Assembly (NCBI RefSeq): GCF_000006985.1
Contig: NC_002932.3
Span: forward strand, 581,501-645,500
Direction: 5' to 3'
Length of the DNA: 64,000 bases
Origin: Chlorobaculum tepidum TLS
Lineage (GTDB): Bacteria > Bacteroidota > Chlorobiia > Chlorobiales > Chlorobiaceae
Position numbers and translations under genes: made by a program. Position 1 is the first letter of the stretch, and every line of letters starts with the position of its first letter. The notes below the pieces were generated by a model that saw only the letters and a program-made list of their open reading frames with translations, did no database searches and was not told the origin of the DNA. This document shows positions 31,352 to 43,129 of this stretch, piece after piece.

Positions 31352-32956
31352 TCAGCTATTCAGGGCCTCGCTGGCTGGAGCCGTTGCGGCCGCTTTCGAC
31401 TGGTTGTAGAACAGGTAGTAGTTGATGCTGTCGTTGAGCGCCTGAAGACTCGCTTCGATGATGTTGGTCGAAACACCGACCGTTCCCCAGCTGTTCTGGC
31501 CGTCGCTGCTCTCGATGAGTACCCTCACCTTGGCGCTCGTACCGCTTTTTTCTTCGAGCACGCGCACTTTGTAGTCGATCAGTCTGATCATGCGAATATC
31601 CGGATAGAAGTGCAGCAGCGCCTTGCGGAGCGCCTTGTCGAGCGCGTTGACCGGGCCGTCGCCGTCCGCGACCGTCTGCTCGGTTTCATCGCCGACCATC
31701 ACCTTCATCACGGCCTGATCGACCGCCTTGATCTCCTGCCCGTTCTGGATGACCACCTTTGATTCGAGTACCTCGAAATAGGGCTTGAACTGGCCCAGCT
31801 CGCGGCGCAGAATCAGCTCGAAGGAGGCTTCAGCCCCGTCGAACTGGTAGCCCTGGTGTTCGAGCTTTTTGACGTGGTTGACCAGATTCTTGAACACTTC
31901 GCCCTTTTCTGGCAGCGAAATGCCGAGTTCTTGCGCCTTGTAGCGGATGTTGCTCTGCCCGGCCAGCTCCGAGACCAGCACGCGCTGGCGGTTGCCGACC
32001 AGCATCGGGTCGATGTGCTCGTAGAGCGAGCTCTCCTTCATCACCGCGCTGACGTGGATGCCGCCCTTGTGTGCGAAGGCCGATTTGCCCACGAACGGCG
32101 CCTTGGAGTCAGGCGGGAGGTTCAGGATTTCATAGACGAACTTCGACATCGAGGTCAGCGATTTCAAATCCTGCACATGGCTGAACTCCGCGCCAAGCTT
32201 GAGCATGAGGTTCGGGATGATGCTCACCAGATTGGCGTTGCCGCAGCGCTCGCCGATGCCGTTGATCGTGCCCTGCACCTGAGTTGCGCCTGCCCTGACT
32301 GCCTCGATGGAGTTGGCCACGGCAAGGTCGCTGTCGTTGTGCGCGTGGATGCCCACCGACACGCCGATGATCTCACGCACCCGCGTGACGATTGCCGCGA
32401 TCTCGTGCGGCAGCGTGCCGCCGTTGGTGTCGCACAGCACGACACGGCTTGCGCCGCCATCGACAGCCGCTGCGATCATCCGTTCGGCGAACCCTGCATT
32501 ATCCTTCCAGCCATCGAAAAAGTGCTCGGCATCGAAGAATACCTCGCGGCCTGATTCGACAAGGAATTTTACAGAACGATAAATCAGCTCGGCGTTTTCG
32601 TCATCCGAAATGCCCAGGCTTTTGACTGAGTGGGCTTTCCAGGTTTTTCCGAAAATGGTGAGCACTGGAGCTTCGCATCTGACAAGGCCGACGAGGTTTG
32701 GATCATTTTCGACATTGTCGAGCGAACGCGCCGTCGAACCGAACGCCGTCAGACGGGCGTGTTTCAGGTTCAGCTTCCGTGCTTTAAGGAAAAACTCTTC
32801 GTCCTTCGGATTGCTGCTCGGCCATCCGCCTTCGATAAAGTCCACACCGAACTCGTCGAGCCGCTCGGCGATCAAGAGCTTGTCCTGTACCGAAAGATTG
32901 ATGTGCTCACCCTGCGTACCGTCACGCAGGGTGGTGTCATACAGTTCTATTACCAT
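31352..32956 (-). CDS. cimA: (R)-citramalate synthase (LeuA-like)
   Basis: This 534-residue protein of the isopropylmalate synthase family has the catalytic DTTLRDGTQGE at residues 7-17, GIHAHNDSDLAVAN and the GTINGIGERCGNANL motif, with a C-terminal regulatory domain (about 400-520). The sequence near the barrel (EGGWPSSNPKDEEFF) and the length fit the citramalate synthase branch rather than LeuA. Citramalate synthase condenses pyruvate with acetyl-CoA to start isoleucine synthesis without threonine. It ends the ilv/leu operon and lies 8 bp after leuD. LeuC/LeuD/LeuB would process its product, supporting the assignment. Confidence 0.88.
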   Translation of the reverse strand: MVIELYDTTLRDGTQGEHINLSVQDKLLIAERLDEFGVDFIEGGWPSSNPKDEEFFLKARKLNLKHARLTAFGSTARSLDNVENDPNLVGLVRCEAPVLTIFGKTWKAHSVKSLGISDDENAELIYRSVKFLVESGREVFFDAEHFFDGWKDNAGFAERMIAAAVDGGASRVVLCDTNGGTLPHEIAAIVTRVREIIGVSVGIHAHNDSDLAVANSIEAVRAGATQVQGTINGIGERCGNANLVSIIPNLMLKLGAEFSHVQDLKSLTSMSKFVYEILNLPPDSKAPFVGKSAFAHKGGIHVSAVMKESSLYEHIDPMLVGNRQRVLVSELAGQSNIRYKAQELGISLPEKGEVFKNLVNHVKKLEHQGYQFDGAEASFELILRRELGQFKPYFEVLESKVVIQNGQEIKAVDQAVMKVMVGDETEQTVADGDGPVNALDKALRKALLHFYPDIRMIRLIDYKVRVLEEKSGTSAKVRVLIESSDGQNSWGTVGVSTNIIEASLQALNDSINYYLFYNQSKAAATAPASEALNS

Positions 32957-32964
32957 GCTTTTGC

Positions 32965-33537
32965 TTATGCCTCAGTCGAAGCCATGAGGTTGTTTTTCCT
33001 TGCGTATTCAAAGATGCCGCCCGCCTGCACAATATTGATCACGTCACCCAGCGGCCGCAGCTCGTAGGTGATGTTCTGCGTGAGGTTGGTCAGCGTGTTG
33101 TTCTCCATGTCGAGCGACAGCTCGTCGCCGGTCATGATCGACTTGTTGAGCGGCTGCGCCGTCTCAAAGGGAATAACAAAACCGCCGTCCACGCAGTTGC
33201 GGTAGAAAATCCTCGCGTAGGATTCGGCGATGATCGCTTTGGCTCCGGCGACCTTCAGCGCGAAGGGCGCGTGCTCTCTCGACGAGCCGCAACCGAAGTT
33301 GGGTCCGGCGATGATGATCGAGTATGGCGAGGTGAACTCACCCTCTTCGACGAACGGAATATTGCCTTCCGGAAGTCCCGCCTGGTCGATCGGAACGCCG
33401 GAGAGCGCGTATTTGCCGTACATCTTCACCTCTTCCGGATCGGAGAGGCTGTAGACCAGGTGCTCGGCGGGAATGATCTGGTCGGTGTCGATATTCTTGC
33501 CGAGAACGTAGGCTTTACCTTGTATGATGGTATCCAT
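32965..33537 (-). CDS. leuD: 3-isopropylmalate/citramalate isomerase small subunit
   Basis: The 190-residue swivelling-domain protein pairs with LeuC to isomerise isopropylmalate, and in this operon probably citramalate/citraconate too. It has the GKAYVLGKNIDTDQIIPAEHL opening and the active-site loop GPNFGCGSSREHAPFAL. The length lies between classical bacterial LeuD (about 200) and the shorter archaeal-type forms. It follows leuC by 35 bp and precedes cimA by 8 bp in the minus-strand branched-chain amino acid operon. Confidence 0.93.
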   Translation of the reverse strand: MDTIIQGKAYVLGKNIDTDQIIPAEHLVYSLSDPEEVKMYGKYALSGVPIDQAGLPEGNIPFVEEGEFTSPYSIIIAGPNFGCGSSREHAPFALKVAGAKAIIAESYARIFYRNCVDGGFVIPFETAQPLNKSIMTGDELSLDMENNTLTNLTQNITYELRPLGDVINIVQAGGIFEYARKNNLMASTEA

Positions 33538-33572: not shown

Positions 33573-34868
33573 TCAGAGGAAATCTCTCGGATCGGTGAGT
33601 TTGCCCGTTATGGCAGAGGCTGCCGCAGTCAGCGGCGAGGCCAGATAGACGCTCGCGAACTTGCTGCCCATGCGGCCAGGGAAGTTGCGGTTGGTGGTCG
33701 AAACGACGACGTCGTTGTCCACCGAGCGCCCGACCGTGTCCGAAGGGCCGCCGAGACACGCCGCGCACGATGGCAGGGCGATGTTGCAGCCAGCTTCCTC
33801 GAAAATATGGCGCAGTGTCTGGCCATCGTACATCTCGGTTTCGAGCTGCGATGCCACGAGCACGGTTGCCGGGACGATGTTGGTTGTGACCGCCACCTTC
33901 TTGCCCTTGAGAATCTTCGCTGCGAGCTTGAAGTCGGTCAGCTTGCCGCCGGTACAGGAGCCGATGTACGATTTGGTGATCGGCGTTCCGGCCACGCTGT
34001 GCACGGTGGCGCGGTTGTCCGGGCTGTGCGGCTTGGCGACGATCGGCTCCATCTTTTCGACGTTGTAGCGGTACATGCTGTGGTACTGCGCGTCGGGATC
34101 GCTCGTGAAGATTTCGTACGGCTTGCTGGTGCGCGCCTTCACGAAGGCTTCGGTGACCGCATCGGCAGCGATGATACCGTTCATGCCGCCCGCCTCGATG
34201 GCCATGTTGCAGAGCGTCATGCGCTCGTCGATCGGCAGCGAATAGACCGCTTCGCCATCGAACTCCATGGCGCGGTAGGTCGCGCCGTCGGTGGTGATGT
34301 CGCCGAGGATCTGGAGGATCAGGTCTTTGGCCGTCAGGTACTCGGGCATCTGGCCTTCAAAGGTGAACTTCATCGAATCAGGCACCTTCTCCCAGAGCTT
34401 GCCGGTGCCGAGGATGAAGGCTGCGTCGGTGTTGCCGATGCCGGAGCCGAACATGCCGAATGCGCCCGAGGTGCAGGTGTGCGAGTCGGTGCCGAACAGC
34501 ACGGTGCCGGGGAGGTTAAAGCCCTCTTCGGCCAGCGCGACGTGGCAGACGCCGCGGTAGCGGTCGGTGCCTACATCATAGTAGTTCGGCAAGCCCTGCT
34601 CGGCGGCGAACTGGCGCAAGAGGTCGATATTGCGGTGCGCGTGCTCGTTGGCCGTGAAGATGTAGTGGTCGGGAAGCACCACCACTTTCGACGGATCCCA
34701 CACCTTGGCGTTCGGGCCGAACTCCTGCTTGAAGATATCGAAGGTCGGCGGGCCGCAGACGTCGTGCGTCAAGAGAACATCGACATTGAGCCATACGCTC
34801 TGGCCGGGATCGACGAATTTGCGGTTCGCAGCCCTGGCGAAAATTTTCTGGGTTATCGTTTGTGCCAT
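33573..34868 (-). CDS. leuC: 3-isopropylmalate/citramalate isomerase large subunit
   Basis: This 431-residue aconitase-family protein binds a [4Fe-4S] cluster. The cluster cysteines are likely the Cys of SYIGSCTGG and the pair in LPSCAACLGG. DSHTCTSGAFGMFGSGIGNTDAA is the substrate-site signature. The length matches the shorter archaeal/LeuC2 type rather than the about 466-residue enterobacterial form, consistent with dual isopropylmalate/citramalate use. The open frame extends to 34943, but ATG 34868 (MAQTITQKIF) is the family-like start. Confidence 0.93.
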   Translation of the reverse strand: MAQTITQKIFARAANRKFVDPGQSVWLNVDVLLTHDVCGPPTFDIFKQEFGPNAKVWDPSKVVVLPDHYIFTANEHAHRNIDLLRQFAAEQGLPNYYDVGTDRYRGVCHVALAEEGFNLPGTVLFGTDSHTCTSGAFGMFGSGIGNTDAAFILGTGKLWEKVPDSMKFTFEGQMPEYLTAKDLILQILGDITTDGATYRAMEFDGEAVYSLPIDERMTLCNMAIEAGGMNGIIAADAVTEAFVKARTSKPYEIFTSDPDAQYHSMYRYNVEKMEPIVAKPHSPDNRATVHSVAGTPITKSYIGSCTGGKLTDFKLAAKILKGKKVAVTTNIVPATVLVASQLETEMYDGQTLRHIFEEAGCNIALPSCAACLGGPSDTVGRSVDNDVVVSTTNRNFPGRMGSKFASVYLASPLTAAASAITGKLTDPRDFL

Positions 34869-35036
34869 GGTTTCAAAGATTCCGTTATCGGATATATAAT
34901 CTTGTCTGAATTTTTTCTTGTCCGGGCTAGCAGGCCCCGTCAAAAACTGAAAAGCCGGAGACCTGCAGAGCTCCGGCTTTTCTCGTTGCGGCTCACCGCC
35001 GCATGTGCTCTGTCGTTTTCTTTGCGTTGTTCGCCG

Positions 35037-36095
35037 TCAAATTCGGGCGACGATAGCCGCCGTCATTTCTGTTGTCGAAGAGATCGCCTCGCCCGCTGCG
35101 GCGATGTCGCCCGTGCGGAAGCCTGCAGCAAGCGCGCCTTCGATGGCCGCGTAAATGTCAGCCGCCACTTCGGGCCGGTTGAAGCTGTTCTCGAACATCA
35201 TGGCCACCGATGCAATGGTCGCGATCGGGTTGGCCTTGTTCTGGCCCGCGATGTCGGGAGCGCTGCCGTGAATCGGTTCGTAGAGCGCGTGCTCCGAGCC
35301 GATGCTGGCCGAGGGCAACATGCCGAGGCTGCCGGTGATCATGCCGGAGATGTCGCTCAGGATGTCGCCGAAGAGGTTGCTCGTCACGATCACCTCAAAC
35401 TGCTTCGGGTTGCGCACCACCTGCATTGCGGCGTTGTCAACGTACATATCGACCAGCTCGATTTCCGGGAAATCCTGGTGCACTTCATGCACGATGTTGC
35501 GCCAGAACTGTGAGACTTCAAGTACGTTGGCCTTGTCGATCGAGGTGACCTTGGCGTTGCCGCGTTTCTGCGCGTATTCGAACGCAAGCCGCGCGATGCG
35601 CTCTACCTCGTAACGCTCGTAAACCATTGTGTTCCAGCCGCGCGTTTCGTCGTAGCCTCTCGGCTGACCGAAGTAGATGCCGCCGGTCAGTTCACGGAAC
35701 ACCATAAAGTCAGTGCCCTGCACCACTTCAGTTTTCAGCGTCGATGATGCCACGAGAGCATCGTACACCCTCGCCGGACGCAAGTTTGCAAACAGGCCGA
35801 GCTCCTTGCGGATTTTCAGCAGGGCCGCTTCAGGCTTTTTGTCGTGCGGCAGGTTCTCCCATTTGTAGCCGCCGACGGCGCCAAGCAGCACCGCGTCGCA
35901 GTTCTTGCATGCCTCGAGCGTCTCGTCGGTCAGCATGGAGCCGTGCACGTCATACGACGCGCCGCCGAACAGGTGCTCCTCGACCGAAACTTCAAAGCCG
36001 TGCTTTTTCGCGACGGCGTTCAGCACGTCGAGCGCACCGGCTACCACTTCGGGGCCGATGCCGTCGCCGGGGATAGAGACAATTTTATACATCAT
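35037..36095 (-). CDS. leuB: 3-isopropylmalate dehydrogenase
   Basis: This 352-residue decarboxylating dehydrogenase has the NAD-site and substrate motifs SIPGDGIGPEV near the N-terminus, LRKELGLFANLRPAR, VFRELTGGIYFG, DKANVLEVSQFW and the C-terminal EPIHGSAPDIAGQNKANP. It converts 3-isopropylmalate to 2-ketoisocaproate precursor and can act on the homologous intermediate of the citramalate route. It sits between ilvC (8 bp upstream) and leuC in the operon, with about 170 bp to leuC, the largest internal gap. Confidence 0.95.
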   Translation of the reverse strand: MMYKIVSIPGDGIGPEVVAGALDVLNAVAKKHGFEVSVEEHLFGGASYDVHGSMLTDETLEACKNCDAVLLGAVGGYKWENLPHDKKPEAALLKIRKELGLFANLRPARVYDALVASSTLKTEVVQGTDFMVFRELTGGIYFGQPRGYDETRGWNTMVYERYEVERIARLAFEYAQKRGNAKVTSIDKANVLEVSQFWRNIVHEVHQDFPEIELVDMYVDNAAMQVVRNPKQFEVIVTSNLFGDILSDISGMITGSLGMLPSASIGSEHALYEPIHGSAPDIAGQNKANPIATIASVAMMFENSFNRPEVAADIYAAIEGALAAGFRTGDIAAAGEAISSTTEMTAAIVARI

Positions 36096-36103
36096 CCTCC
36101 CGC

Positions 36104-37102
36104 TTATTTCTTTTTCAGCCAGCTCATCATGCCGCGCAGCTTCGCGCCGACGACTTCGATGGGGTGGTTGCGGTTGCTCTCACGCAACTCGTTCATCTTC
36201 TTGTAACCGGAGTTGCATTCGTCGATGAACTCTTTTGCGAAGCGACCGTCCTGAATCTCTTCGAGAATCTTCTTCATCTCGGCTTTCGCGGCGGAAGTGA
36301 CGACGCGCGGGCCGCGGGTCATGCCGCCGTACTCGGCGGTGTCGCTGACCGAGTAGTTCATGCGCGACAGGCCGCCTTCGTAGTAAAGGTCAACGATGAG
36401 CTTCAGCTCGTGCATGCACTCGAAGTAGGCCAGCTCGGCAGGATAGCCCGCCTCGGTGAGGGTCTCGAATCCGGCCTTGATGAGTTCAGCCGAACCGCCG
36501 CACAAGACGGCCTGTTCACCGAAGAGGTCGGTTTCAGTTTCATCCTTGAAGCTGGTCTCGATCACGCCAGCCTTGGTGCCGCCGATGCCTTTTGCCCATG
36601 CGAGCGCAATTGCCTTGGCGTCGCCGGTAGCGTCCTGGTGCACCGCGATGAGGCAGGGCACGCCGTTGCCTTCGGTGTAGGTGCGGCGAACGAGGTGGCC
36701 GGGGCTTTTGGGCGCGATCATGATGACGTTCACGTCAGCCGGCGGCACGATCTGCTTGTAGTGAATATTGAAGCCGTGGCCGAAAGCGAGCGTCGCGCCC
36801 GATTTCAGGTTCGGCGCGATTTCGTTGTCGTAAACGCTTTTCTGGGTCTGATCCGGCAGGAGAATCATGACGATATCGGCCCATTTGACCGCTTCGGCCA
36901 CAGTGTCAACCTTCAGGCCCGCTTCGCGTGCCTTGGCGCAGGAGGCGCTGTCGGTCTTGAGGCCGACGCAGACGTTCATGCCGCTGTCCTTCAGGTTCAG
37001 CGCATGAGCGTGGCCCTGGCTGCCGTAGCCGAGAATGGCGATATTCTTGTTCTGCAGTACCGCAAGATCGGCATCCTGCTCGTAATAGATATTCATTGAC
37101 AT
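36104..37102 (-). CDS. ilvC: Ketol-acid reductoisomerase (class I)
   Basis: This 332-residue enzyme isomerises and reduces acetolactate or acetohydroxybutyrate with NADPH and magnesium. The Rossmann motif [17 protein letters not shown] is near residues 26-42, [12 protein letters not shown] and the acidic metal-binding helix follow ([19 protein letters not shown]), and the [19 protein letters not shown] segment is typical. The length is that of class I enzymes. It lies between ilvN and leuB in the operon. Confidence 0.96.
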
Positions 37103-37139: not shown

Positions 37140-37619
37140 TCAGCTCTCGCCGCGATGGATGGCTACCGCGCCGGAACGGGCGAGTTCACGGATGCCGAAA
37201 GGCCTGAAAAGGTCGATGGCCGTGTTGATTTTGTCGGGTGAACCAACGAACTCAATAGTAATGGATTTTTGCTTTATATCCACGACTTTTCCCTTAAAAA
37301 CATTGGCCAGCTCGAAAATCTCGTGTTGCGTGGATTTGCTGAGTTTCAGGCTCAGAAGCAGCAGTTCGCGCTCCACGTGCGGCTGATGGGTGAGGTCGGT
37401 CACCTTGATCGTATCAATCAGACGGTTCAGTTGCTTGAGCACCTGGCTGATGATGCGGTCTTCGCCCCGCGTCACGATGGTCATGCGCGAAATTTCCGGG
37501 TCTTCGGTTTCGCCGATGGAGATGCTTTCGAGATTGAAGCCGCGAGCGCTGAACATGGCGGCAACCCGGTTCAGCGTGCCGAACTTGTTCTCGACCAGAA
37601 CGGATATAAGATGTTTCAT
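37140..37619 (-). CDS. ilvN: Acetolactate synthase small (regulatory) subunit
   Basis: The 159-residue protein begins with an ACT domain ([36 protein letters not shown]) and ends with the small-subunit C-terminal domain ([17 protein letters not shown]). It activates the catalytic subunit IlvB and mediates valine feedback inhibition. It follows ilvB by 9 bp. The name ilvH is equally used. Confidence 0.95.
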
Positions 37620-37628
37620 AGAAGTAGC

Positions 37629-39350
37629 TTAAACCATTGTTTTCGGATTCAGCCGGGCCAACAGCATGTCTGAAATCGAGCCGCCGGCGGGTACCATTGG
37701 AAAAACCATATCCTTGCGGATAACCCTGAAATCAACCAGCACTGGCCCGTCGTTGTACGCGAGCGCTTCGGTGATGGCGGCGCGCGCTGCTTCCGGATTG
37801 CTGGCGCTCATCGCCTTGCAGCCAAAGGCTTCGGCAACCTTGACGAAATCGGGGTTGCTCGACGCCAGGTCGGTGAAGGTGTACTTCTCCTGATGGAACA
37901 GCTCCTGCCACTGGCGCACCATGCCGAGGTAGCTGTTGTTGATCAGGAAAATCTTGATCGGCAGTTTGTTGTAAACCGCCGTGACCATCTCCTGGATGTT
38001 CATCATCAGACCGCCGTCGCCACTGAAGAGCAACACTGGCCGGTCGGTGACGCCGAAGGCCGCGCCGATGGCCGACGGCAGGCCGAAGCCCATGGTGCCG
38101 AGTCCGCCACTCGTGATGATCGAGCGCGGTTCGGTGAACTTGTAGTACTGCGACGTCCACATCTGGTGCTGGCCGACGTCGGTAACAACCACCGCGTGAC
38201 CTTTGGTCTGCCTGGAGACCTCGTCGATGACGAACTCGGTTTTGAGCGAATCCGGCTCGATCTCGTAGTCGAGCGGACACTGCTTGCGCCACTTCTCGAT
38301 TTCGGCGAGCCACGCGCTGCGATCCTCCCTCGATTTCGGCATCGCTTCGATGAGCGAGGCGAGGAAGTCCTTCGAGTCGCCGACCACCGGCAGATCGACC
38401 TTGATGTTCTTGTCCACGTTGGTCGGGTCGATGTCGTTGTGGATTTTGTACGCATGGGTGGCGAAGGTGTCAACCTTGCCGGTGACGCGGTCGTCGAAGC
38501 GCGCACCGACGGCGATCAACAGGTCACAGTTGCTCACCGCCTGGTTGGCCCAGTAGGTGCCGTGCATGCCGAGCATTCCCATGGAGAGCGGATGGTCGCC
38601 GGGGAACGCGCCGAGTCCTTGCAGGGTCATGGTGACCGGAATCTGCTGGTCGATGGCCAGCTTGCGCAGCTCCGCCGATGCCTCCGCGCTGATGACGCCG
38701 CCGCCGACGTAGAAGAGCGGACGCTTGGCTTTGGCGATCATTTTCGCCGCTTTGCTGACCTGGTTGGCGTGGCACTTGATCGTCGGCTTGAAGCCTCGAA
38801 TGTCAACGTTCTCCGGCCACTCGAAGGTGCATTCGGCGTTCAGCACATCTTTGGGCATATCGACCAGCACCGGGCCTGGCCGTCCGTTGGTGGCCAGGTA
38901 AAATGCCTTGCGGATGGTCGTAGCCAGCTCGCGCACATCCTTGACGAGGAAGTTGTGCTTGGTGATCGGCCGCGTGATGCCGACGATGTCCGCTTCCTGA
39001 AAGGCGTCGTTGCCGATCAGCGAACTCGGCACCTGGCCGGTGAAGACCACTAGCGGCGTGGAGTCCATGTAGGCGTTGGTGATGCCGGTGACGGTGTTGG
39101 TCGCGCCGGGGCCGGAGGTGACCAGCACCACGCCGGGCCTGCCGGTGGCGCGGGCGTAGCCCTCGGCCATGTGGGTCGCACCCTGTTCGTGGCGCGCCAG
39201 AATGTGCTCAATATCCTCGACATCGTGCAGGGTTTCATAGACTTTCAGCAATGCCCCGCCGGGGTAGCCGAAGATGTATTCGACGTTTTCACGCCTTAGA
39301 CACTCGAAAAATATTTCGGATCCGATCAGTTTCTCTCCGTTGTTATGCAT
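37629..39350 (-). CDS. ilvB: Acetolactate synthase large subunit
   Basis: This 573-residue ThDP enzyme forms acetolactate from two pyruvates or acetohydroxybutyrate from pyruvate and 2-ketobutyrate. The N-terminal domain has the catalytic Glu stretch LARHEQGATHMAEGYARATG. The C-terminal domain has the ThDP/magnesium motif SGDGGLMMNIQEM...INNSYLGMVRQWQ. FAD-binding regions lie in the middle third. It lies between ilvD (72 bp upstream) and ilvN. Confidence 0.96.
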   Translation of the reverse strand: MHNNGEKLIGSEIFFECLRRENVEYIFGYPGGALLKVYETLHDVEDIEHILARHEQGATHMAEGYARATGRPGVVLVTSGPGATNTVTGITNAYMDSTPLVVFTGQVPSSLIGNDAFQEADIVGITRPITKHNFLVKDVRELATTIRKAFYLATNGRPGPVLVDMPKDVLNAECTFEWPENVDIRGFKPTIKCHANQVSKAAKMIAKAKRPLFYVGGGVISAEASAELRKLAIDQQIPVTMTLQGLGAFPGDHPLSMGMLGMHGTYWANQAVSNCDLLIAVGARFDDRVTGKVDTFATHAYKIHNDIDPTNVDKNIKVDLPVVGDSKDFLASLIEAMPKSREDRSAWLAEIEKWRKQCPLDYEIEPDSLKTEFVIDEVSRQTKGHAVVVTDVGQHQMWTSQYYKFTEPRSIITSGGLGTMGFGLPSAIGAAFGVTDRPVLLFSGDGGLMMNIQEMVTAVYNKLPIKIFLINNSYLGMVRQWQELFHQEKYTFTDLASSNPDFVKVAEAFGCKAMSASNPEAARAAITEALAYNDGPVLVDFRVIRKDMVFPMVPAGGSISDMLLARLNPKTMV

Positions 39351-39422: not shown

Positions 39423-41105
39423 TTAAAAATCGTTTTTCAGAACCGCACCGGTATTGGCCGAGGTGACCATTCGTGCGTATCGTGCCAGATACCCTTTTTT
39501 GATTTTCGGCTCGAACTTTGGCAACGCCTCGATGCGCTGGCGGATGGTCTCGTCATCGAGTGCTACCGTCATCGAACGAGCCGGTATGTCGATGGTGATC
39601 ATGTCGCCGGTTTGTACCGCCGCGATCGGGCCGCGGTCGGCGGCTTCGGGCGAGACGTGACCTACACAGGCGCCACGCGATCCGCCGGAGAAGCGCCCGT
39701 CGGTGATGAGCGCGACTGAATCGCCGAGGCCGCGGCCTATGATGGCGCTGGTTGGCGAGAGCATCTCCGGCATCCCGGGGCCGCCGCGCGGGCCTTCGTA
39801 GCGGATCACCACCACATCGCCCGACTTGACGTCGCCATTCATAATGCCCGCAATGGCGTCGTCCTGGCAGTCATAGACCTTCGCCGGGCCGGTGTGCTTC
39901 ATCATCGCCGGGCTGACCGCGCCGGTTTTGACAACTGCGCCGTTCGGCGCAAGGTTCCCGTAGAGCACTGCCAGACCGCCGGTGGTCGAATACGGCTCCT
40001 CGACGGAGCGAATCACCGTGCGGTCGAGCACCTCGGCGCTGGCGATATTCTCGCCGAGCGTCTTGCCGGTGACGGTCGGGGCGGAGAGGTCGAGCAGCCC
40101 CTCAACCTTCGACAGCTCCTTCAGAATGGCCGAAATGCCGCCCGCGCGATCAACATCCTCGATGTGTACCTCGGTGGTTGCCGGGCTCACCTTGCAGATA
40201 TAGGGCGTTTTGGCTGACAGGTCGTTCAGCTCCGAGAAGTCGAAGTCGAGTTCAGCTTCGCTTGCGATGGCCAGCGTGTGCAGAATCGTGTTGGTGCTGC
40301 CGCCCATCGCCAGGTCGAGCGCGAAGGCGTTGAGCATCGACGTACGGGTCAGAATCTGGCGCGGGCGAACCTCCTTCTTCACCAGATCGATGATGCGTCC
40401 GGCAGCGGCTTTGACCAGCTCGTTGCGTCGCGGATCGGCGGCAAGGATCGTGCCGTTGCCGGGCAGCGCGAAACCGAGCGCTTCGCAGAGGCAGTTCATC
40501 GAGTTGGCCGTGAACATGCCGGAGCAGGAGCCGCATCCTGGGCAGCCGCACTCCTCGACGGTCTGGAGTTCATCCTCCGTGATTTCGCCGGTGCTGCACT
40601 TGCCGACCGCCTCGAAAACCGAGATAAGATCGACCGTTTTGCCCGATGGGGTGTGCCCGGCCTTCATCGGCCCGCCTGAGACGAAGACAACCGGCACGTT
40701 CGTCCTGAGCGCGCCCATCATCATGCCGGGGGTGATTTTGTCGCAGTTTGGGATGCAGACCAGGCCGTCGAGCCGGTGCGCTTCGACGACGGTCTCGACC
40801 GAGTCGGCGATCAGCTCGCGGCTGGCCAGCGAGTAGCGCATGCCGACGTGGCCCATCGCAATGCCGTCGCAGACGCCGATGGTGTTGAACTCGAACGGCA
40901 CGCCGCCAGCCTCGCGCACGGCTTCCTTGGCGATGCGGCCCAGCTCCTGCAAATGCGCGTGGCCCGGAATCAGCTCGTTGAAGGAGTTGCAGATGCCGAT
41001 GAACGGTTTCGAGAAATCATCTCGTGTCGAAACGCATCCGGTTGCCTTGAGGAGACTGCGGTGCGGAGCCTTTTCAAATCCTTTTTTTATGGTATCTGAT
41101 CTCAT
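39423..41105 (-). CDS. ilvD: Dihydroxy-acid dehydratase
   Basis: This 560-residue Fe-S dehydratase forms the 2-keto acids of valine and isoleucine. It contains [12 protein letters not shown], the cysteine-bearing [18 protein letters not shown], and the [20 protein letters not shown] cluster-site motif, plus the C-terminal [19 protein letters not shown]. It is the first structural gene of the eight-gene minus-strand operon. Its ATG lies about 34 bp after the U-rich hairpin of the putative attenuator, so its transcription would be controlled by the leader peptide. Confidence 0.96.
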
Positions 41106-41139
41106 GGGTCAAGTCGATGGTTAGTAATTGAAAAACAAA

Positions 41140-41175
41140 GAAAAACAAAAGTCCGGGCCTGCCTGTCCCGAAGCC
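41140..41175 (-). terminator. Attenuator terminator hairpin upstream of ilvD
   Basis: On the minus strand, TTCGGG pairs with CCCGGA (one wobble) around a nine-base loop ACAGGCAGG, followed immediately by CTTTTGTTTTTC. It lies between the leader peptide stop and the ilvD start, the position expected for the attenuating terminator. Confidence 0.65.
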
Positions 41176-41224
41176 TTGAAGTCTGATGTATTGTCGCGGA
41201 AAATACGATGGACCTGGAAACGGG

Positions 41225-41239
41225 CTGACGGCGGGTCAG
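41225..41239 (-). promoter_or_regulatory. Pause-type hairpin over the leader stop codon
   Basis: On the minus strand CTGAC-CCGCC-GTCAG forms a perfect 5-bp stem that overlaps the stop codon of the putative leader peptide (41236-41238). In known attenuators an early hairpin covering the end of the leader frame pauses polymerase and is opened by the ribosome. Confidence 0.5.
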
Positions 41240-41382
41240 GCTACGATAATTCGTACGTGTACAAGCGGTACCGATACGGTAAGGGTAATACCGGAGAGGA
41301 GGGGGGTGTGGTGTGCCGTGAAGCTTCTTGCCGCAGGTGTTTCAGGTCGTGAGGCCTCCCTGTGCCCTGAGGCTGCGATCAT
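41236..41382 (-). CDS. Putative branched-chain amino acid operon leader peptide
   Basis: A short minus-strand frame upstream of ilvD ends with ITLTVSVPLVHVRIIVA and then TGA. Twelve of these 17 residues are Ile, Val, Leu or Thr, with five Val codons (all GTA). This density is typical of ilv operon leader peptides, in which ribosome stalling controls attenuation. The start is uncertain: ATG 41382 gives 48 residues, while ATG 41409 or a still earlier codon would lengthen it, and no strong ribosome binding site stands out. The stop overlaps a pause-type hairpin, and a U-rich terminator lies about 60 bp further on. The arrangement, not the peptide length, is the evidence. Confidence 0.55.
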   Translation of the reverse strand: MIAASGHREASRPETPAARSFTAHHTPLLSGITLTVSVPLVHVRIIVA

Positions 41383-41526
41383 GGAGTGATGTTTAGTCTG
41401 AGACGGCATTGCAATGGATCGGTTGTCGAGCCAGTTCATGAAAAATTGCAATCAAGTTACATTTTCCCCGCTATTAAATCAAGAGCGCAAGTGCTCTCGA
41501 GCATAAAAGTCAATAAATATTTTCAT

Positions 41527-41943
41527 GAGCCTGTTCAGCCAAGTGTGTCAACGGTCGTTGTCATAGAGGCACCAGGGGCACCCTTTCCTCGAATGTAATG
41601 GAAAACTGATTGATGACCGCCCCCCGGTTGCATAGCGGCATCGTCCATTTTTTGGCAATATTCTGCATGGCAAGATAGATCAGCTTGATCGCGTCGGTCA
41701 CGCTGCTGATGAGCGCTTCGGAGACTTCGACCTGGTAGAGCTCCAAAGCAACATGGCCTGCATGTCGCGGACGCTTGTGCCGTGTTCGTTGCGGCTGTTG
41801 GCGGTGTTGGGCACGATGGGCAGATGCTTCGGATAGCCGAGCTGCCCGATCAGCTCGCCCTGAATGTCCGGGGTCTTGTCTTTCTTTCTGGTCATAGTTT
41901 TGCTCCTTTTTCAATGATAGGAAACTACGACCGTTTACACACT

Positions 41944-41958
<15 letters not shown>
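41527..41958 (-). mobile_element. IS256-derived non-autonomous element, copy 1
   Basis: A 432-bp element bounded by 32-bp imperfect inverted repeats (41527-41558 and 41927-41958; core AGTGTGTmAACGGTCGT). On the minus strand it encodes fragments of an IS256-family transposase: the N-terminus MTRKKDKTPDIQGELIGQLG joined to GYPKH, then SVRDMQAML/LYQVEVSEALISSVTDA, then the C-terminal IKLIYLAMQNIAKKWTMPL. The central catalytic DDE region is missing. This copy has an extra deletion of about 80 bp compared with copies 2 and 3. Its right end abuts and truncates recQ. Confidence 0.85.

Positions 41959-43129
<1,171 letters not shown>

Follow-up and report, generated by a model that had tools for sequence, protein, structure and literature searches.

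What controls the eight-gene ilvD-B-N-C-leuB-C-D-cimA operon of Chlorobaculum tepidum, all of whose genes lie on the minus strand of the stretch of DNA analysed here (the window, 64,000 nucleotides of a genome held as a single contig of 2,154,946 bp)? A first-pass annotation, made from the letters alone, had proposed a translation-coupled attenuator in front of ilvD. To place this region in a comparative setting, we drew on 98 genomes of the class, located ilvD in 84 and compared 82 upstream regions. A conserved run of branched-chain codons, a pair of mutually exclusive helices and a promoter-like block together support the proposal well, and we consider it very probable, judging by sequence comparison, that the operon is controlled by a ribosome-mediated transcription attenuator. 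The component parts are collected in Table 1.

Table 1 Parts of the putative ilvD attenuator and genes of the downstream operon, with positions in the window
Feature	Position	Strand	Basis
Promoter-like block, TTGATT-N17-TAACTTG	41453–41482	-	Conserved upstream of leader start; weak sigma-70 match
Leader peptide gene, 57 codons: MPSQTKHHSMIAASGHREASRPETPAARSFTAHHTPLLSGITLTVSVPLVHVRIIVA + TGA	41236–41409	-	Stop-free frame, conserved length
Ile/Val/Leu control-codon run, last 17 leader codons	41239–41289	-	I/V/L content, GTA bias
Stop-overlapping hairpin, CTGAC-CCGCC-GTCAG	41225–41239	-	Read from sequence; sequence-conserved within genus
Region 2, antiterminator 5′ strand, core CCAGGTCC at 41217–41210	41210–41227	-	Covarying helix, 67 sequences
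Region 3, GGCTTCGGGACAGGC, strand common to antiterminator and terminator	41161–41175	-	Core near-invariant across class
Region 4, CCCGGA, terminator 3′ strand	41152–41157	-	82% of cells paired, 67 sequences
T-rich tract TTTTGTTTTTCTTTGTTTTT after terminator hairpin	41131–41150	-	Read from sequence
ilvD, dihydroxy-acid dehydratase, first operon gene	39423–41105	-	TIGR00110, 805 bits
ilvB, acetolactate synthase large subunit	37629–39350	-	TIGR00118
ilvN, acetolactate synthase small subunit	37140–37619	-	TIGR00119
ilvC, ketol-acid reductoisomerase	36104–37102	-	TIGR00465
leuB, 3-isopropylmalate dehydrogenase	35037–36095	-	TIGR00169
leuC-type 3-isopropylmalate dehydratase large subunit	33573–34943	-	NF001614, score above its cut-off
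leuD-type 3-isopropylmalate dehydratase small subunit	32965–33537	-	TIGR02087, score above its cut-off
cimA, citramalate synthase	31352–32956	-	TIGR00977, 709 bits

The leader is a short minus-strand frame with a branched-chain-rich end and a TGA stop, present as first annotated (41409–41236). It finishes with ITLTVSVPLVHVRIIVA followed by the stop at 41238–41236, 133 nt from the ilvD ATG. The start, an ATG at 41409, is conserved within the genus of the window and gives a leader of 57 codons, a length kept in many species; a further in-frame ATG sits 10 codons 5′ of it. Across 79 sequences, the last 120 nt before the leader stop contain no stops in the leader frame, whereas the other two frames hold 139 and 60. 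By this comparison the leader reads as a short translated frame under coding selection, positioned upstream of the operon.

The end of the leader encodes, close to its stop, the amino acids that the operon produces. Reading the sequence confirms that 12 of the final 17 residues are Ile, Val, Leu or Thr and that all five valines are GTA; one Ala codon (GCC) stands between the final Val and the stop. Ile/Val/Leu account for 61% of these 17 codons in the window's genus and for 58% in the main sister-genus group, versus 4–24% in the other frames of these two; the share is 72% in two sequences from a distant family and 35% in a group with shortened leaders, and over all groups the other frames give 3–28%. 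V, I and L dominate the run, with F, M, W, A and G scarce, and the order of residues drifts while the V/I/L class is kept. The comparison of Chlorobi ilvD upstream regions suggested by the first-pass annotation thus comes out in its favour, the run being retained class-wide as other bases change. Codon choice within the run is distinctive: in the window's genus GTA accounts for 91 of 99 Val codons (92%), versus 38 of 778 in ilvD of the same species (5%), and across the window's operon genes it makes up 7% of Val codons.

Upstream of the leader, the block CTTGNNTTAATA...ATGTAANTT was matched in 64 of the 82 regions, from both genera, and precedes the leader in most of them. Conservation of this block 5′ of the leader start would place the leader inside the transcript and, on this sequence evidence, goes against a transcription start 3′ of 41236, the case that the first-pass annotation named as refuting; we infer that transcription begins upstream of the leader. 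A generic promoter scan did not flag the block, and returned no promoter-like site on the minus strand here. Further upstream, a short minus-strand frame at 41561–41914 resembles a transposase fragment, an impression gained from reading.

The key element of the putative attenuator is an antiterminator that had gone unnoticed in the earlier annotation. All species with the element carry a near-invariant GGCUUCGGG (region 3) and, about 40–50 nt upstream, a complementary CCCAAGUCC (region 2). The region 2 core is the pairing partner of GGCTTCGGG in the 2:3 helix, which the sister genus extends by GCCG:CGGC. Over a 67-sequence alignment, the 12 pairs of this helix are formed in 91.4% of cells (87.1% in shuffled alignments), with double changes in 31 cells (9.1 in shuffles) and a covariation score of 0.214 (0.141 in shuffles); 0 of 500 shuffles reached the observed value for each measure. 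Relatedness among the sequences inflates such shuffle tests, yet controls in which the partner strand is slid by 1–3 columns retain that relatedness and pair in only 19–51% of cells. Individual lineages illustrate the covariation: a clade of the sister genus has exchanged AAGUC:GGCUU for AAGUU:AACUU, two genomes (G011 and G012) have G-C in place of C-G, and in the distant-family genome G038 the helix is largely rewritten. RNAalifold applied to entire leaders recovered the structures only in part.

Region 3 also forms the 5′ strand of a terminator-like hairpin, and the two structures, sharing a strand, are mutually exclusive. This second hairpin, TTCGGG(acaggcagg)CCCGGA (41172–41152, minus strand), and the T-rich tract behind it were found between leader and ilvD as originally described; the stem can be extended to AAG...CTT. 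Region 3:4 pairing (CUUCGGG...CCCGGAG) holds in 82% of cells, versus 66–68% when slid by one position. The terminator helix showed no covariation over the 67 sequences, nor did the swap test reveal anything, because region 3 hardly varies, being held by both helices. With a stem of about 7–8 pairs and a loop of 7–9, the hairpin is of modest stability, averaging about -8.7 kcal/mol, and among the relatives a mean of 6 T occur in the 10 bases that follow. The tail is T-rich in most species and weak in three, and the U-tract is interrupted in many. A simple terminator scan did not flag the hairpin and listed none on the minus strand here, probably because the scan accepts loops of up to 8 and this one has 9. 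Kept pairing and a T-rich tail, rather than covariation, support its assignment as an intrinsic terminator, and the hairpin with its tail is preserved across the class while surrounding bases drift. Just 5′ of the ilvD start, most species also keep a TAATTGCTAA-like motif (CAATTACTAA in the window, 41121–41130), which may bind the ribosome or S1, or act as a further promoter element.

How region 2 would be withheld appears to differ between lineages. The first-pass annotation described a perfect hairpin overlapping the leader stop, and it lies exactly at 41239–41225, with its sequence conserved at the level of the genus; covariation was sought for this hairpin and for another inside the run, with clear support for neither. 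In the window's genus the leader stop borders on part of region 2, and region 3 has a possible alternative partner there in CCCGUCAGGCC, directly behind the stop codon.

For a region 1, we scanned every 10-nt segment upstream of the leader stop against region 2, comparing each sequence's own partner with swapped ones; this position-by-position test replaced a codon-shuffle energy test of region 1:2 pairing, which was uninformative because region 2 is G+C-rich. In the sister genus (n = 44), the segment at -54 pairs best with region 2 (-8.8 kcal/mol versus a mean of -3.3), and each sequence prefers its own region 2 (cross-pairing, -7.4 kcal/mol; 0 of 1,000 permutations). This region 1, immediately ahead of the run, consists of the codons AGG ATC GGA or variants of them, and its changes are matched by those of its partner (GGAUCGG:CCGGUCC, GAUCGG:CCGAUC). 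These pairings complete the classical 1:2/2:3/3:4 set in the sister genus. In the distant family, GG-U-ACGACUUA:UAGGUCGU-CC in G038 (P = 0.03 versus codon shuffles) and CAGGGAC:GUCCCUG in G041 (P = 0.065 versus codon shuffles), both with a G+C-rich region 2, suggest a region 1 that immediately precedes the run or coincides with its beginning. In the window's genus the same scan upstream of the stop turned up no such partner for region 2.

Minimum-energy folds fit this lineage difference. With the RNA free from -15, as it would be with a ribosome stalled in the run, the antiterminator forms in 64 of 79 sequences, that of the window included. Masking to +13 (a ribosome on the stop) yields the terminator in 16 of 20 sequences from the window's genus versus 12 of 44 from the main sister-genus group, and masking region 2 to +22 yields it in 67 of 79. 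The predicted balance is thus one in which the ribosome on the stop withholds region 2 in the window's genus, and region 1 does so in the sister genus. Wholly free RNA folds at equilibrium into the antiterminator in most species, so the OFF state would have to be kinetic or ribosome-bound. With slightly less than even confidence, we propose a single class-wide GGCUUCGGG ON switch, turned off by a stop-codon ribosome in the window's genus, where the Val control codons are nearly all the rare GTA, and in the sister genus and the distant family by a region 1 within the coding sequence ahead of the run.

The leader frame, its I/V/L-rich end and the downstream element are present in 79 of the 82 ilvD upstream regions, two of them from the distant family, whose IlvD is 70–72% identical. 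A covariance model (R1) of the 86-position element adds one genome (G077), bringing the arrangement to 80 of 83 genomes examined, with one genuine copy per genome and always before ilvD. Extra model matches with E > 0.001 (in G022, G023, G028, G042, G046, G070, G077 and G083) were judged to be chance; on inspection (all except that in G023) they lie mostly within long reading frames and have no leader-like run, and none of the extra matches precedes ilvD. Leader and antiterminator are absent upstream of ilvD in one small group (G024, G036 and G071; L099, L100 and L071), in which the attenuator was probably lost secondarily. The short upstream region of ilvD in these genomes is unrelated, with a short frame beginning MRN.

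Departures of another kind occur in G029, G031 and G033 (L024, L026 and L035), whose leaders have few branched-chain codons and which keep the antiterminator and have mostly lost the U-tract; these copies are either decaying or switched to another output. Outside the class, in another class of the same phylum, contig C28 of G060 (L098) carries a 43-codon leader, MDTTRHIDTSHARHSWGSGGRPSVSVRTILLHLGNLLALGLIL, that ends 153 nt before an ilvD match, and its leader region contains CCAGAGG...CCTCTGG and a hairpin, GCCTCTGGCAGACGGCAGGC, then GTATGTTTTT. We regard this as probably another, Leu-rich ilv attenuator in the phylum.

The proposed mechanism would run as follows. The mRNA would begin upstream of the 57-codon leader, and Val (as rare GTA), Ile and Leu abound among the final 17 codons of that leader. 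A shortage of tRNA charged with any of these three would stall the ribosome in the run, leaving region 2, downstream of it, to pair with region 3 as the antiterminator, and polymerase would enter ilvD. With these amino acids in ample supply, the ribosome would continue to the leader stop and region 2 would become unavailable. In the window's genus the position of the ribosome on the adjoining stop would account for most of this, perhaps aided by the stop hairpin; in the sister genus and distant family, region 2 would be taken up by region 1. Region 3, now free, would form the terminator with region 4, and this hairpin and its U-rich tail would halt transcription. Sequence comparison shows the coding frame, the run, the antiterminator and the sister-genus region 1, and kept pairing supports the terminator; the transcription start, stalling, termination, the OFF state and the choice of amino acids sensed are inferred.

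Other readings of these features have to be weighed. Leader translation could instead switch the RNA to control the start of ilvD translation rather than transcription. A leader peptide and alternative helices would suit this too, and in three relatives the helices persist but the U-tract is missing; the ilvD start, however, follows region 3 at a distance of about 55–71 nt in nearly all species, region 4 leaves that start uncovered, and in most species the hairpin is followed by a T-rich tail. We therefore rate control of translation as improbable.

Both of the readings that make the leader something other than a sensor are less probable still. Were the frame to encode a small functional protein, of the membrane for example, its conservation and hydrophobic end would be explained and the control run would be mimicry. 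Against this, the residues expected of a membrane segment (F, M, W, A and G) are scarce beside V, I and L, residue order drifts, valine is GTA in 92% of cases in the genus run versus 5% in ilvD, and mutually exclusive helices, one of them covarying, lie between the frame and ilvD; we consider such a protein very unlikely. We give equally little credence to a ligand-sensing riboswitch or T-box controlling the operon with an incidental reading frame. An 86-position element whose core is conserved, placed ahead of a biosynthetic operon, is what such a regulator might look like, but a search of 40500–42000 against Rfam matched no family at E values up to 1, two exclusive helices account for the conserved core, and both the conservation of the frame and the match of its amino-acid run to the operon products argue against it.

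The ilvGMEDA, ilvBN and leuABCD attenuators of E. coli and Salmonella combine an Ile/Val/Leu-rich leader, an antiterminator and a terminator with one strand in common, and a U-rich tail. The candidate described here has the same layout and logic and serves the same pathway; unlike them, it has no Rfam match, a longer leader of 57 codons, ilvD as first gene, and control codons that are mainly Val (the rare GTA in this genus), and it belongs to a different phylum.

The leader attenuator of Staphylococcus aureus, supported by suppressor mutations and reporters, likewise stands before ilvD of an ilv-leu operon and has a branched-chain-rich leader peptide and a terminator (PMC5794164). In the S. 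aureus model the poly-U tail is the proposed partner of the antiterminator (PMC5794164); the antiterminator described here uses the terminator's 5′ strand instead. The ilvB-II and ilvB-OMG/ilvB motifs of Corynebacterium and others also pair a branched-chain-enriched uORF with exclusive terminator and antiterminator; these precede ilvB (PMC10272879). The window region matches no Rfam family. Attenuators of ilv, trp and leu genes in Actinobacteria, another phylum, were likewise predicted comparatively from leader peptide, terminator and antiterminator (PMC1262725). Mutation of ilvB leader codons in Streptomyces was without effect (PMC1262725), a warning against taking layout by itself as proof; the covariation found here is stronger evidence than layout, and comparative in kind. 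Within Chlorobia, a hisS T-box has been found, which works by a different mechanism (PMC2965389). Our literature searches, which did not cover the survey of Lopatovskaya et al. 2010 and its possible Chlorobi entries, returned no report of leader-peptide attenuation in Chlorobi, and to that extent the suggestion that attenuation is undescribed in this phylum stands uncontradicted.

The covariance model R1 could become an Rfam family, and the near-exclusive use of rare GTA offers a direct test of control-codon choice theory. The 80 natural variants, with their compensatory swaps, decayed copies and few losses, show an attenuator in evolution. If our reading is true, translation-coupled transcription attenuation would be established in green sulfur bacteria, phototrophs whose control of amino-acid genes has been little studied, and would imply that their transcription and translation are coupled closely enough to serve as a signal.
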